64,000 nt of DNA. It comes from an uncultured Bacteroidota bacterium (GTDB taxonomy: Bacteria; Bacteroidota; Bacteroidia; Chitinophagales; Chitinophagaceae). Each line of letters begins with the position of its first letter. Position 1 is the stretch's first letter. The stretch is from assembly GCA_903851465.1 (NCBI GenBank), contig CAINOI010000033.1:62001-126000 (forward strand), read 5' to 3'. The position numbers and the translations under genes were made by a program. The notes beneath the pieces are model-generated. The model searched no databases. It was not told where the DNA came from and worked only from the letters and a program-made list of their open reading frames with translations. Of the stretch, positions 36,843 through 62,768 are shown piece by piece.

Positions 36843-37817
36843 TTACTTCAGTTCAATCAGGGTGGCCTGCAATGGATAGGATATCTTTAAACCAATTTGA
36901 TTGGCTGCTTGAATTTCTGATTTGATTTTTGTTTCGCACCCCTCACAAGGTTTTACATGCGTCACATACAATGCCGTATTTTTTAAGTTTCCATTAGACA
37001 GTGCATTTAATGTCGCCATTTCTTCCATTAATAATGTAGGCGTTAGGTGTCCAAACAACGCTTTTTCAGGAACGCTATTGTCAAAAGACACTTCTATGAA
37101 GATAGCTTTAAGCTGATTTTTCAGCACCAATGGTGCAACGGCCTTCCATAATGCAGCTAGTTGTGTACTTTGTTCAACCATATCTGCGCCCGTATCGCCA
37201 AGATACAATAGGTAGTTGTTTTGATTACGCACTAAGAAAGCAGTGCTCTCATATGGTTTAACATGACTTAATACAAACGGTGTGACAAATAAACCGGTAT
37301 TGTCAATTGGAATTTCAACTTTGGGTATTAAATTTTGATAGCTGTATTTTTTTAAGATGGGCGCTTCTCCTTCATTCCCAAAATTGGCCCAAGCAGACCA
37401 GGTAAAATAGTTTTTCTTGAATATCTCTAAGACAGAAGCTAGCCCGTATAAATTTTTCGCATTGTCATTGGGGGAATTCATGATCAATCCTGCGGTATGG
37501 TCTAAATGTGCATGCGAAATAAAATAGCTATTGATTTGTTGTTGTTGAATGCTACTTGGATTAACAGGTTTAAATAATTTACTGGCTACGGCCAATTCAA
37601 GTCCTTTATATATGGTCCCGGCGTCTAGACAAATAAATTGGTCGTTTCCACTTGCCGCAACCAGGTATGCGGAGAGGTTCGACTCGTCTAGGCCACCCTT
37701 CACACCAAGTGGGATGACTTTAAAGCCATAGCTTGCAATTGACGAATTGTTAGTTTGTCCTGAAACATGCAGTACGACCATCAACAAAAAGGACAGGATT
37801 GATATTATTTTTTTCAT
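36843..37817 (-). CDS. secreted MBL-fold hydrolase, class II 3',5'-cyclic-nucleotide phosphodiesterase-like
   Basis: Signal peptide, FISHAHLDHTAGL metal motif, LYLGDTGADMVE, HLTPTLLMEEMATL. Confidence 0.82.
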   Translation of the reverse strand: MKKIISILSFLLMVVLHVSGQTNNSSIASYGFKVIPLGVKGGLDESNLSAYLVAASGNDQFICLDAGTIYKGLELAVASKLFKPVNPSSIQQQQINSYFISHAHLDHTAGLIMNSPNDNAKNLYGLASVLEIFKKNYFTWSAWANFGNEGEAPILKKYSYQNLIPKVEIPIDNTGLFVTPFVLSHVKPYESTAFLVRNQNNYLLYLGDTGADMVEQSTQLAALWKAVAPLVLKNQLKAIFIEVSFDNSVPEKALFGHLTPTLLMEEMATLNALSNGNLKNTALYVTHVKPCEGCETKIKSEIQAANQIGLKISYPLQATLIELK

Positions 37818-37868: not shown

Positions 37869-37893
37869 CGTTCCATTTGCGTAATTGGGAACA
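37869..37893. promoter_or_regulatory. operator-like palindrome site S1: cGTTCC-atttgcgtaattg-GGAACA
   Basis: GTTCC 37870-37874, N13, GGAAC 37888-37892; 72 nt upstream of ATG 37966; same motif and spacing at three other loci. Confidence 0.75.
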
Positions 37894-37965
37894 TATTCAA
37901 ATAGCCAATTGCGGTTTTAAAAAAATGAACATGATATTTTTGATACAAATCAAACCAATAGTTTT

Positions 37966-38448
37966 ATGAAAAAAATGTTTATATGCTTAATGGCATTAGG
38001 CACATTGACAGTTACTGCGGTATCTGCACAAAAAATGGATCAAGCTTCAAAAAACATCCAGTTTTACGGTCATGTTTGGGATGTAGTAGTCAATGAAGGA
38101 AGAGTGAATATTTTAGACACTGCTTTCGCTGATAATGTTATTTTACGCACTACCCCTGCTGTAACTGGTAAGGCGGGTGCTATAGCTTATTACTCAAATT
38201 ATGTTACTGGATTTAGTAACAGACAATTTACAGTAAGAGAATCTCTTGCTCAAGGCAATAAAGTAGTAAAATACTGGAATTTTAAAGGGAAGCATACAGG
38301 TACATTCTTTGGTATTCCAGCAACCAATAAGGATGTGGATGTGGTTGGTTGTACGATTGCAACAATCGTAAACGGTAAAATTACTGAAGAGCGTGATTTT
38401 ATGGATATGTTAGAATTCTTACAGCAATTAGGCATCATGCCTCGTTAA
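37966..38448 (+). CDS. secreted SnoaL/NTF2-like (ester-cyclase type) protein
   Basis: Signal peptide; FYGHVWDVVVNEGRVNILDTAFADNVILR ... KHTGTFFGIPATNKDVDVVGCTIATIVNGKITEERDFMDMLEFLQQLG. Confidence 0.88.
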   Translation: MKKMFICLMALGTLTVTAVSAQKMDQASKNIQFYGHVWDVVVNEGRVNILDTAFADNVILRTTPAVTGKAGAIAYYSNYVTGFSNRQFTVRESLAQGNKVVKYWNFKGKHTGTFFGIPATNKDVDVVGCTIATIVNGKITEERDFMDMLEFLQQLGIMPR

Positions 38449-39674
38449 GCTACTTTGGAGCTTAACAATTTTATAAAAGCGGAAGGGGTTACTCCCTTTC
38501 GCTCTTTAAAAGCATCAATGAATTTTGATCTAGATGCAAATCCCGAATTTGAAGCAATCGCTTCTATGGTAATATTTTTAGATCCCCCAGCCTCTATCAT
38601 CTTACATACGTAGTCTATTCTTAAGTTTTTTCTCCATTCACTGAAGGTTAAATTCAACTCTTTATTAAAGTAAACAGATAATATTCTTTCTGGAATTTTT
38701 AAGTCAAAGGACATTTGAGAAAGCGAAAATTCCTTTTGTATGTAGGGTGCCTTAATTAAATATTCATTTATAGTTTGCTCAAAATCTTGCGTACTAGCAG
38801 CCTCTTTTTGTTTCTTAGGCAAAATCGACTTAAACTCTTCTATAATATTGTCTTTCCCCTTCTCAATTGTATAAGATATGTTACCATAAAGGATCTTAGG
38901 AAATAAGAATAGGAAAATATTTTGTAAGAAAAAGCCACCACCACAAATTTCAAAATAATATTTCTGGCTAAAAATGGTAGTGGATGGAATTCCTAATACA
39001 CTAAATTGCACCCCATACAAGGTGCTCATATGTCCAATACTATTAATTGCAATGACAATCTGTATGAGGCAGAGTAAATACAACCATCTACTAATAATTG
39101 AATGATTGGACGAAAGCCTACTATATTTTTTTAGCAATTTTTTACTATGAAAATAGAAATAGCCGATAGAAAAAACCGCGTAGCATAAAAGATGAATCGA
39201 TCTAGAATAAAGGATAAATTCAAATGAGACAAAGTTGAAATCAAGTGTATAGTTCTCGGTTACATTAACAATTTCATGGGCGATTTGTGCTTTTTGGTCA
39301 AAAGGCAGGGTGGTAAATGGCAGGCAATTAATGACAATAAAAACTGCAGGAAGCAAATGCAACCAATCCCATTTTTCAAGCTTGTTATTGTCTGATAAGG
39401 TAGTTTTTACATAATAAAACAACAATGGTCCTAGTAAATAGGATAAAGGTAGCCAATGCACAAAACTGATACCTTCCCAAAAGAGGTCCTTGGTAAAATG
39501 TAAGCCATAATAGACCAATACCACAAGGTTGCAACACAAGAAAAAAAGTGCTAAGAATATATTCGATCTATTTAAGGAGCTTAAATAGTATAAAAGAATA
39601 AATGAAGTAAAAATCCCGAACAAGGGGAATAGAATAGCCATAAATGGATGATTACTAGTTGAATAGGGGTTCAA
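38445..39674 (-). CDS. membrane-anchored AraC-family transcriptional regulator (7-TM-like N-terminus plus C-terminal HTH_18)
   Basis: Multiple hydrophobic helices then FSLSQMSFDLKIPERILSVYFNKELNLTFSEWRKNLRIDYVCKMI...TIEAIASNSGFASRSKFIDAFKERKGVTPSAFIK. Track start is TTG 39674; likely true start ATG 39641 (MAILFPLFGIF). Confidence 0.92.
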   Translation of the reverse strand: MNPYSTSNHPFMAILFPLFGIFTSFILLYYLSSLNRSNIFLALFFLCCNLVVLVYYGLHFTKDLFWEGISFVHWLPLSYLLGPLLFYYVKTTLSDNNKLEKWDWLHLLPAVFIVINCLPFTTLPFDQKAQIAHEIVNVTENYTLDFNFVSFEFILYSRSIHLLCYAVFSIGYFYFHSKKLLKKYSRLSSNHSIISRWLYLLCLIQIVIAINSIGHMSTLYGVQFSVLGIPSTTIFSQKYYFEICGGGFFLQNIFLFLFPKILYGNISYTIEKGKDNIIEEFKSILPKKQKEAASTQDFEQTINEYLIKAPYIQKEFSLSQMSFDLKIPERILSVYFNKELNLTFSEWRKNLRIDYVCKMIEAGGSKNITIEAIASNSGFASRSKFIDAFKERKGVTPSAFIKLLSSKVA

Positions 39675-39754
39675 GATAAGTAAATTTGAATTGCTTTAAT
39701 TCGAATTAGGTCTAAATTTATTAATCCTTTCTATTTATTTAAATTATGCATATT

Positions 39755-39779
39755 TGTTCCAAAATGCCTAAATGGAACA
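39755..39779. promoter_or_regulatory. operator-like palindrome site S2: TGTTCC-aaaatgcctaaat-GGAACA
   Basis: Exact TGTTCC-N13-GGAACA upstream of the minus-strand AraC-type gene. Confidence 0.75.
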
Positions 39780-39802
39780 GGATCCTACCCCATTTAGGCT
39801 AT

Positions 39803-39839
39803 AAAAAAGGCCCAGGCAAAATTGCCCGGGCCTTTTTTA
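39803..39839. terminator. intrinsic terminator AAAAAAGGCCCAGGCAA-AA-TTGCCCGGGCCTTTTTT
   Basis: Long GC stem with A/T flanks, downstream of minus-strand gene 39865-40656. Confidence 0.9.
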
Positions 39840-39864
39840 TAGCACCAAACTTAAAACTGAATCC

Positions 39865-40656
39865 TTATTTGCTTACGCGCTTATATGTCTTGATACTTGT
39901 TACTTTATTCACAGTATCAGAGATTGTTTGTGTAAACTCATCTGGACCATTGAAAGTCACAGGAATATTGAATTTACCAATCCAAGTTCTATTGCTAGAG
40001 AAAGTTAAATCTTCGATTAATGTACCGTTGCTTAAAGTAAAGCTCCCCTTACCAATGTGGTTAGCCATAACATTAGTAGTCGTATCTGTCACTGCTCTAG
40101 CAGCCCACATAAAATGACCTGCATGGAATACTTTATATTCATTGTATGTATTTACAACTGAATCTTGCCCAGTCACATTGATACTTTTTGTTTGGTGCCA
40201 TAAGCCATCTAAATCAGTTGTGCCAGCGCCTTCTAATTTTATATAATCTTCAGAACTACTCCATTTTGCACCATTGATCACGATTGCATCAATCTTCTGA
40301 TTATAACCTTTTTCGTTCTTTGTGATCGCTAACTTAACAGTATTTGCAGAATCTAAAGTAGTTGTATTGAAAATATTCACCTCTTCAATGTTATTAGCAT
40401 CTTTCTGAGTGTAAGATCCAACACCAAAAGATACAGCACTATCCTTGTTTTCTCCAATATAAAAATAAGATTCAGCAGTGTATATTTTAAATTGGGTATA
40501 GCCATCTGCAGCCGATGACGCATTGTCTTTACCATCGTAATTCCAAACCACTTTGTCCATTGAGTAAACACCAGCATGAGATGTTGGGGCTTCTGGTTGA
40601 GCGCAACTAGCTAATAATGCAGCCATTGCAAATCCTACAATCGTTGTTTTTTTCAT
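39865..40656 (-). CDS. hypothetical lipoprotein (lipocalin-like beta-rich)
   Basis: Lipobox ALLASCAQ; beta-rich sequence, no confident family. Confidence 0.75.
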   Translation of the reverse strand: MKKTTIVGFAMAALLASCAQPEAPTSHAGVYSMDKVVWNYDGKDNASSAADGYTQFKIYTAESYFYIGENKDSAVSFGVGSYTQKDANNIEEVNIFNTTTLDSANTVKLAITKNEKGYNQKIDAIVINGAKWSSSEDYIKLEGAGTTDLDGLWHQTKSINVTGQDSVVNTYNEYKVFHAGHFMWAARAVTDTTTNVMANHIGKGSFTLSNGTLIEDLTFSSNRTWIGKFNIPVTFNGPDEFTQTISDTVNKVTSIKTYKRVSK

Positions 40657-40738
40657 TGTTAATGTTTTTTGTTTTTAAGCTTAAGGACTCCAATTTACCT
40701 ACTTAAATAAATAATAGGCGGGAAGAAAATGTTAAAAA

Positions 40739-40763
40739 TGTTCCAAATTAGGTTTAAGGAACA
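40739..40763. promoter_or_regulatory. operator-like palindrome site S3: TGTTCC-aaattaggtttaa-GGAACA
   Basis: Exact TGTTCC-N13-GGAACA in divergent intergenic region; 74 nt upstream of ATG 40838. Confidence 0.75.
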
Positions 40764-40837
40764 AATTATGGATCAAATCATCTATAAAATCTTACGCTGA
40801 GCATTAAATTGGGGCTTCAATCAAAAATTAAATTCAT

Positions 40838-41356
40838 ATGAAAAAGTTCATTTTAGCATGTCTTGTGGTAAGTACCATCATTGCATGTTCTCCAAAAACA
40901 GAAACAGCTAGCACATTTGCGGCTCCTGCAGATCTAAATAGTTACAATCTTGACAGTACAGCGAATACTGAATTGGTAAAAAAGATGGTAGTCGCTTTTG
41001 AAACAGGAGATTCTGTAACTTATAGATCATGCTACGCAGATTCAGTTAAATTCCATGACAATTTAAAGGAAATGACTTTAGATCAAAATCTGGGTTATTT
41101 CAATTTTTTCAAATCAAACAACTTAACTGTTAAAACTATATCTTTTGAGCCAATTTGGGAAATCGTGAATAAAGAAGCTTCGCCAAATGGTGTTACCAAT
41201 TATGTTATATCATTTCAGAACACAATTTATAAGAAAGGGGATAAGGAAGTAAAAGTAATGGTGAGTATGGTTGATGGCATTAAAGATGGTAAAATTGTGG
41301 AAGAATGGTCTATTTATGACTCAAAAGCAATGATGGAACTAATATCACAAAAATAG
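40838..41356 (+). CDS. NTF2-like lipoprotein
   Basis: Lipobox STIIACSP; ELVKKMVVAFETGDSVTYRSCYADSVKFHDN ... VMVSMVDGIKDGKIVEEWSIYDSKAMME. Confidence 0.8.
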   Translation: MKKFILACLVVSTIIACSPKTETASTFAAPADLNSYNLDSTANTELVKKMVVAFETGDSVTYRSCYADSVKFHDNLKEMTLDQNLGYFNFFKSNNLTVKTISFEPIWEIVNKEASPNGVTNYVISFQNTIYKKGDKEVKVMVSMVDGIKDGKIVEEWSIYDSKAMMELISQK

Positions 41357-61618: not shown

Positions 61619-62083
61619 TTATTTTGTGGCCAATGGAAGATCTGTAGTTCCTATATCTCTGTGTAGTTTCCATTTGCCGTCCTCTTTTTTCCAAAGTACG
61701 AGATACTTGCCTTTATCCAATTGAACGCCTTCTTTTGATTTTATTTCAAAAATACCTTCTTCTGTAATTACCTCATTGTTACCCCATACTTCTAAAGTTG
61801 TTAAAGTAATAACGCCTCCAACGGCATTAATAAATCCGCCCCAAAATGAAGTTAGATTGCTCGTACCGTCAACAGAAGGCATATTAGCAGGCATGAATTT
61901 ACCATCCTTAGTATAAGCATTAGCGGCTCCTACAGAATCACCTTTGGTAATTAAATCGGTTAAATTGACATTAGCGGCCTCAATTTCCATTTTTGCATTT
62001 GCTAAATCGAATGCTGGTTTTGTTTCTGATTTACATGCGAATAAACTAGATGCAATCATTGCTGAGAAAAGTAATTTTTTCAT
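61619..62083 (-). CDS. NTF2-like (DUF4440-type) lipoprotein
   Basis: Lipobox SLFACKS; DSVGAANAYTKDGKFMPANMPSVDGTSNLTSFWGGF ... KGKYLVLWKKEDGKWKLHRDIGTT. Confidence 0.85.
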   Translation of the reverse strand: MKKLLFSAMIASSLFACKSETKPAFDLANAKMEIEAANVNLTDLITKGDSVGAANAYTKDGKFMPANMPSVDGTSNLTSFWGGFINAVGGVITLTTLEVWGNNEVITEEGIFEIKSKEGVQLDKGKYLVLWKKEDGKWKLHRDIGTTDLPLATK

Positions 62084-62152: not shown

Positions 62153-62177
62153 TGTTCCTTTTTGCGTTTTTGGAACA
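62153..62177. promoter_or_regulatory. operator-like palindrome site S4: TGTTCC-tttttgcgttttt-GGAACA
   Basis: Exact TGTTCC-N13-GGAACA in divergent intergenic region; 72 nt upstream of ATG 62250. Confidence 0.75.
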
Positions 62178-62249
62178 ATATTCCCTGTTTTTAGTGCCTA
62201 TTTTTAATGGCTCCGCAATAAATTCACAGTTCAAATTAAAACCCAAACT

Positions 62250-62768
62250 ATGAAAAAAGTATTTTTAGGATTACTTGTTGCAGGATCTTTTGCTGCATGT
62301 ACAAGTACTGACACAAAGACAACTGAAACTGTTGAAGTTGCAGCAACAAATGTTGAACATCTTTACAAGCCAACTTATACCGACAACTTTAAGATGGGCG
62401 ATCAAAAGAATGTACTATTAGCTGAACAATTTCATAAAGTATTGTTTGAGAAAGATTTTAAAGCTGCAGGAGATATGATGTCAGATACTGCAACTATGAA
62501 TGCAGAAGATGGATCAGTATTAAAAGGCAAGGATTCAATCATGGCATATATGGAGAAAAATTTTGCTGGTATCACCTTCAAAGACTTCCAAATTGTTGCA
62601 ATTTACCCTGTAGTTGGAGAAAACGGACATCAGTGGGTAGATATCTGGGACGAAGCTGAGCTAGTATTTCCTGACGGTAAATCACAAAAATTCCAATGGA
62701 TGGACGCGTTTAGATTCGAAAACGGCAAAATCGTACACTTTGTAGGATTTGGTAAGGCTGTTAAATAA
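62250..62768 (+). CDS. NTF2-like lipoprotein
   Basis: Lipobox SFAACTS; FHKVLFEKDFKAAGDMMSDTATMNAEDGSVLKGKDSIMAYM ... FQWMDAFRFENGKIVHFVGFGK. Confidence 0.85.
   Translation: MKKVFLGLLVAGSFAACTSTDTKTTETVEVAATNVEHLYKPTYTDNFKMGDQKNVLLAEQFHKVLFEKDFKAAGDMMSDTATMNAEDGSVLKGKDSIMAYMEKNFAGITFKDFQIVAIYPVVGENGHQWVDIWDEAELVFPDGKSQKFQWMDAFRFENGKIVHFVGFGKAVK

Follow-up and report, generated by a model that had tools for sequence, protein, structure and literature searches.

A gene for a membrane-embedded protein with a C-terminal AraC-type helix-turn-helix (HTH), accompanied by copies of one palindrome, raises the question of which protein reads the palindrome and which genes are controlled from it. The locus lies in a 64,000-nucleotide stretch of an uncultured Chitinophagaceae genome, the whole of which was analysed and is called here the window. 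An earlier note had assigned the palindrome to this protein as a guess from proximity. The assignment has gained strong comparative support, which makes the protein the predicted reader. It is probably a one-component regulator with seven transmembrane helices (7TM-AraC) that activates scattered genes for secreted NTF2-like lipoproteins via one common palindrome.

The regulator gene spans positions 38445 to 39641 on the minus strand and encodes 398 amino acids, according to the ORF table, Pfam, an orthologue alignment and an AlphaFold model. In the ORF table the frame extends from 38445 to 39674 (minus strand) with a TTG start at 39674. Judging by the alignment, the true start is the ATG at 39641 and not this TTG, because conservation in 11 aligned orthologues begins at M12. 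The TTG sits within the probable -7 box of the regulator's promoter (TTATCTTG, 39672 to 39679, minus strand, read from the window sequence), and a similar TATCTTG box is present upstream of many regulator orthologues. Automatic annotation from the TTG would add 11 residues to the protein. At its 3' end, the gene overlaps by 4 bp with a convergent gene at 37966 to 38448 (plus strand), the neighbour that the earlier note had named as putative target.

The protein combines a seven-helix membrane sensor half (residues 1-250; 38892 to 39641, minus strand), defined from AlphaFold, with an AraC-type DNA-binding domain (residues 284-397; 38451 to 38792, minus strand), defined by Pfam and fold comparison. 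Its last ~100 residues match HTH_18 (1.7e-13; 51.1 bits, gathering cut-off 33.6) and HTH_AraC (8.6e-11; 42.1 bits, gathering cut-off 26.6), and the domain contains the two HTH motifs of the AraC family. Its fold matches the domains of YesN, ToxT, AraC and MarA with a probability of 1.00, TM-scores to the target of up to ~0.8 and E-values of 1.8e-3 and above. SRSKFIDAFK, the second recognition helix, hardly varies across orders in the site-bearing lineages. In the AlphaFold (AF2) model, built from a 26-member alignment (mean pLDDT 80.8), seven long transmembrane helices are followed by a linker, of low confidence at residues 261-283, and by the two-HTH domain; the membrane half modelled alone reached a pLDDT of 86.0 and a pTM of 0.85. 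Positive loop charges in the sequence favour an N-out/C-in topology, and with the N-terminus outside, the HTH would be on the cytoplasmic side. The fit of hydropathy and loop charge thus predicts a location in the membrane, and the multi-pass N-terminal half with a C-terminal AraC HTH, as first proposed, holds on both counts, including the topology prediction that had been suggested as a check.

The membrane half matches no Pfam model in any of 26 homologues, and the two HTH models are the only Pfam matches common to all of them. Its top 50 Foldseek matches are all GPCRs (probability 0.72-0.99, E-values of at least 0.04, TM-scores 0.36-0.55), and no PDB chain matched the 7TM profile by sequence. 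Membership of the GPCR superfamily was rejected for lack of significant structural or sequence similarity, and the likeness is taken as a resemblance and not as a relationship, because the matches are non-significant and the PDB holds very many GPCRs. A hybrid two-component system was likewise rejected, as Pfam found no HisKA/HATPase, receiver or Reg_prop domain in the regulator or the 26 homologues. With transmembrane helices and a DNA-binding domain in one chain, and neither kinase nor receiver, the protein is by its tested features an AraC-family transmembrane one-component regulator.

Several known systems share parts of this architecture. Members of the AraC/XylS family, such as ToxT, MarA and the C-terminal domain of YesN, have the same complete C-terminal two-HTH domain, whereas here a seven-helix membrane domain serves as the sensor in place of a soluble ligand-binding domain. 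The site here is one palindrome of ~33 bp, unlike the direct repeats found at many characterised AraC sites. ToxR, TcpP and CadC also place sensing, membrane and DNA-binding parts on a single chain; in these classical transmembrane regulators the DNA-binding part is a winged helix at the N-terminus, whereas here it is an AraC domain at the C-terminus, behind the seven passes. The hybrid two-component systems (HTCS) of Bacteroidetes resemble the regulator in fusing a membrane sensor to a C-terminal AraC HTH and in controlling genes for secreted proteins, and differ from it in their Reg_prop, histidine kinase and receiver domains. A wide-ranging survey of transmembrane transcription regulators found Bacteroidota to be rich in them, most of those surveyed being single-pass (PMC10269533). 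In the literature, of which the coverage was incomplete, no description was found of the regulator, the palindrome, a 7TM-AraC family or an NTF2 regulon.

The palindrome has the form GTTCC-N13-GGAAC, extended to TGTTCC-N13-GGAACA, within a fuller site of ~33 bp (AAWWTGTTCC-N13-GGAACAWWTT) whose A+T-rich spacer has a G/C centre. The window holds four exact copies, against about 0.02 expected from base composition, and the whole 1.91-Mb genome five, against 0.6 expected and none of a reversed control pattern. Motif search located S1 (GTTCCATTTGCGTAATTGGGAAC, 37870 to 37892), of which a near-identical site is kept in two other genomes (G261 and G303), S2 (GTTCCAAAATGCCTAAATGGAAC, 39756 to 39778), also seen by locus comparison and lying upstream of the regulator as previously stated, the bidirectional S3 (GTTCCAAATTAGGTTTAAGGAAC, 40740 to 40762) and S4 (GTTCCTTTTTGCGTTTTTGGAAC, 62154 to 62176), none of them assigned a strand. 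The fifth copy lies on another contig (C67), 5' of a further NTF2-like lipoprotein gene. All five stand 5' of the regulator or of a gene for an NTF2/SnoaL-like secreted protein. The palindrome set as given in the earlier note is incomplete, since S4 and the copy on the other contig are also part of it. Sites with one or two mismatches in the same genome are as numerous as in the control (37 vs 37), and therefore exact or near-exact sites alone are claimed. As the arms are fixed by the search itself, independent evidence comes solely from the flanking bases, the spacer, the distances involved and the -7 box.

The distance between site and -7 box is fixed at the targets. When 97 target promoters are aligned on the site, a TAnnTTTG-like -7 box starts exactly at column 66, with at least four of its six letters matched in 72% of the promoters; other columns mostly reach 1-20% (about 10%), and the adjoining column 65 reaches 35%. 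Beyond the arms, the same alignment displays flanking T/A, A+T-rich spacers and the G/C centre. No -33 element is conserved among the 97 promoters, in which ~42 bp separate the end of the site from the -7 box downstream and the -33 region is left free. The sigma-A -7 box of F. psychrophilum spans -12 to -5 (PMC9723704), which places the centre of the site near -66. This layout is the one expected of an activator, for which it is typical, and would be compatible with repression too. The column-66 rule is obeyed rightward of S1, on both sides of S3, rightward of S4 and at three Flavobacterium targets. At the regulator itself the -7 box lies at about column 100 in the window and about column 45 in Aquirufa, so that feedback, if present, works differently from target control.

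The main targets match families of the NTF2-like superfamily (SnoaL, SnoaL_2 and DUF4440; PMC3924330), here in signal-peptide or lipoprotein forms that group as one regulon. Rightward of S1, behind a -7 box at column 66 (TATTTTTG, 37935 to 37942, plus strand), the convergent gene at 37966 encodes a secreted SnoaL/NTF2-like protein of 160 aa (SnoaL 1.4e-27, 96.4 bits), in keeping with its proposed role as a target. In the reverse direction no -7 box occurs at column 66, and the divergent gene for a secreted metallo-beta-lactamase/PDEase_II-like protein (36843 to 37817, minus strand; Pfam) is a doubtful target. From S3, one -7 box (TAAATTGG, 40805 to 40812, plus strand) precedes the gene for a 172-aa NTF2/SnoaL-like lipoprotein (40838 to 41356, plus strand; SnoaL 22.8 bits, below the 28.4 threshold, supported by a joint profile), and another (TAAATTGG, 40690 to 40697, minus strand) precedes the gene for a 263-aa lipoprotein of no known family (39865 to 40656, minus strand), relatives of which stand behind five further sites. 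Between this gene and S2, a strong GC hairpin with a T-run (39800 to 39845) is probably the terminator of the lipoprotein gene, parting the lipoprotein and regulator units. S4 faces the gene for a 172-aa SnoaL_2/NTF2-like lipoprotein on its right (62250 to 62768, plus strand; SnoaL_2 1.5e-10, 42.0 bits; -7 box TAAATTCA, 62219 to 62226, plus strand) and that for a 154-aa DUF4440/NTF2-like one on its left (61619 to 62083, minus strand; DUF4440 24.0 bits, just below 25.2, and joint profile), with a weaker -7 box (TTTCTTAC).

The gene behind the C67 site has no single Pfam match and joins the group by blast cluster and joint profile. A profile from five NTF2-like products recovers seven credible members in the window's genome. 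Five follow a site immediately, a sixth lies two genes beyond on C67, in the same run, and the seventh opens contig C20, so that its upstream region falls beyond the contig edge. An eighth match is weak and confined to the N-terminal 66 positions. On C67 (10540-12560), the palindrome is followed by an NTF2 lipoprotein gene, a gene for a 253-aa secreted protein and a second NTF2 lipoprotein gene; the third NTF2 gene, at C20:35-532 on the other contig's edge, may continue this run.

A survey of all exact sites in 26 other orthologue genomes extends this picture. Among the oriented site readings, 190 of 256 are intergenic, and in 73 of the 134 with a gene downstream 70-84 nt separate site and start. 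Of the 121 downstream proteins, 63 fall into a single blast-linked cluster of NTF2/SnoaL/DUF4440-like secreted proteins. The others include the regulator itself (9), the 263-aa lipoprotein (6), a 240-aa MEVHH protein (6), lipocalin-like (5), TPR-like (5, by eye) and PDEase_II-like (3) proteins, and singletons.

Whether the palindrome follows the regulator was examined in 101 sampled Sediminibacterium genomes, 27 with an orthologue (60-100% identity) and 74 without. Applied to 249 genomes of the family, the plain pattern GTTCC-N13-GGAAC proved too loose, giving coding matches in large genomes (for example GTTCCTGCTCCAGATTATGGAAC, inside a 473-aa ORF), and the extended 12-base form was therefore used for the decisive count. 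Extended sites number 100 in 54.9 Mb where an orthologue is present (1.82/Mb; control 0) and 28 in 202.2 Mb where it is absent (0.14/Mb; control 5). At least two occur in 24 of the 27 genomes with an orthologue vs 4 of the 74 without (Fisher p=5e-16, which ignores shared ancestry), so that the palindrome-rich genomes lacking the regulator that would have spoken against the assignment are not the pattern seen. The co-occurrence may partly reflect phylogenetic clustering, the two perhaps being inherited together. The looser pattern points the same way, with 2.35/Mb in orthologue genomes (control 0.51) and 0.76/Mb (control 0.79) in genomes of similar size without one. Some orthologue genomes carry a single extended site or none (G273, G287 and G343). 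Among the genomes sampled from the family's other genera, none had an orthologue exceeding about 31% identity.

A search of named genomes located relatives in two other orders: in Cytophagales, Aquirufa antheringensis (66% identity) and several Cytophagaceae MAGs, and in Flavobacteriales, Flavobacterium (47%). The 68 regulator loci compared (1.09 Mb) contain 57 exact palindromes vs 0 reversed controls, and the proposed co-occurrence holds both within the genus and in these two orders. In 26 of these loci, among them those of Aquirufa, UBA7467 and UBA6715 and three of Flavobacterium, the regulator has an exact site close by on its upstream side, at varying distance; many Sediminibacterium orthologue loci have none there. 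Autoregulation, as first suggested, agrees with the presence of S2 but would not be uniform, as the site is patchy and stands at other distances. Regulation of the targets appears better supported than autoregulation, because the targets keep the fixed -66 geometry. At six loci (L286, L287, L292, L295, L298 and L300) one site is common to the regulator and a divergent NTF2/DUF4440 lipoprotein gene, and Aquirufa-type genomes have extra sites before other NTF2-like genes (L289, L290 and L297). The comparison suggests that freshwater bacteria of three orders share the pairing of switch and palindrome.

In the mechanism proposed, a signal from outside or from the membrane would change the state of the seven-helix receptor (N-out/C-in), which a short disordered linker would connect to the cytoplasmic AraC domain. 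The AraC domains would bind the ~33-bp palindrome as a dimer, as suggested by the symmetry of the site, and from near -66 would recruit RNA polymerase to Bacteroidota sigma-A promoters that keep a TAnnTTTG -7 box and have no conserved -33 element. This would switch on genes encoding secreted NTF2/SnoaL/DUF4440-like lipoproteins and a small number of further secreted proteins, and in some lineages the regulator would feed back on its own gene from a site at other distances. The palindrome, the make-up of the regulon, the co-occurrence and the fixed geometry are results of the analysis, and the architecture is predicted; we infer dimeric binding, activation rather than repression, the signal and the role of the lipoproteins.

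Other readings of the palindrome have to be weighed against this one. A different, soluble regulator might read it, the 7TM-AraC gene being merely a member of the regulon, and the regulator's own site is indeed absent upstream of many orthologues, with a -7 box distance unlike that of the targets. Site density, however, tracks the presence of a 7TM-AraC orthologue, the conserved core in Flavobacterium and Aquirufa consists of regulator, palindrome and NTF2/DUF4440 gene, and palindromes persist elsewhere in three genomes (G281, G295 and G262) whose regulator has no site of its own, all of which makes a soluble reader unlikely. That the protein acts from the palindrome as a repressor, which a membrane signal would relieve, seems less likely still: this agrees with the Aquirufa-type regulator promoters, where the site lies near the -7 box (column ~45) and would cover the -33 region, but at the 97 targets that region is free, the usual layout of an activator. 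A nature as plain repeats, hairpins or terminators, with no regulator bound, is highly improbable for the palindromes. They are inverted repeats, and some exact matches elsewhere are coding, but the arms measure just 5-6 bp around a variable 13-bp spacer, and in three orders the sites precede gene starts and keep a set distance to a promoter element.

With activation by the 7TM-AraC protein as the preferred reading, one multi-pass regulator now has a defined palindrome, a fixed promoter geometry and a compact target set. Transmembrane one-component regulators are common in Bacteroidota, yet a site or regulon is known for few of the multi-pass kind. The secreted NTF2-like lipoproteins, which are poorly understood, gain a common regulatory context; they might carry a ligand in the envelope, or act there by hydrolysis or isomerisation. 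As Aquirufa antheringensis is a cultured host, the signal sensed and the reach of a membrane-held AraC protein to scattered promoters become directly testable. A more speculative and rather doubtful idea is that the GPCR-shaped sensor wired to an AraC domain represents a receptor family for small outside molecules, that the regulon's lipoproteins might act on that molecule too, by binding or modifying it, and that regulator, palindrome and target moved as a unit between orders of freshwater Bacteroidota. The homologue tree has no settled rooting, and no direction of transfer is read from it; its group counts are set aside, because the group with nearby sites took in three outgroup rows.

Among the more distant relatives, a paralogue clade of Cytophagaceae (57-63% identity, mostly with a GFVSRSKFIDAFK helix) has no exact site upstream and no convincing degenerate one, and nothing common was found in a search for distinct palindromes upstream of 11 distant homologues. 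A long inverted repeat, TTTGGCAAACC..GGATTGCCAAAG, lies upstream of this clade (L166, L169, L173, L174, L179, L181 and L185) and could be a genomic repeat, a terminator or another operator. MAGs titled Chitinophaga pinensis, Spirosoma fluviale and Comamonas hold Sediminibacterium- or Aquirufa-like loci (L125, L129-L131, L170, L172, L186 and L193), and their titles look like poor taxonomic labels. Finally, palindromes at L198:1501 and L211:1501 stand before large genes that resemble sensors (Reg_prop-like by eye), and the one in L211 is divergent from the 7TM-AraC gene, which hints at a link between two signalling systems.
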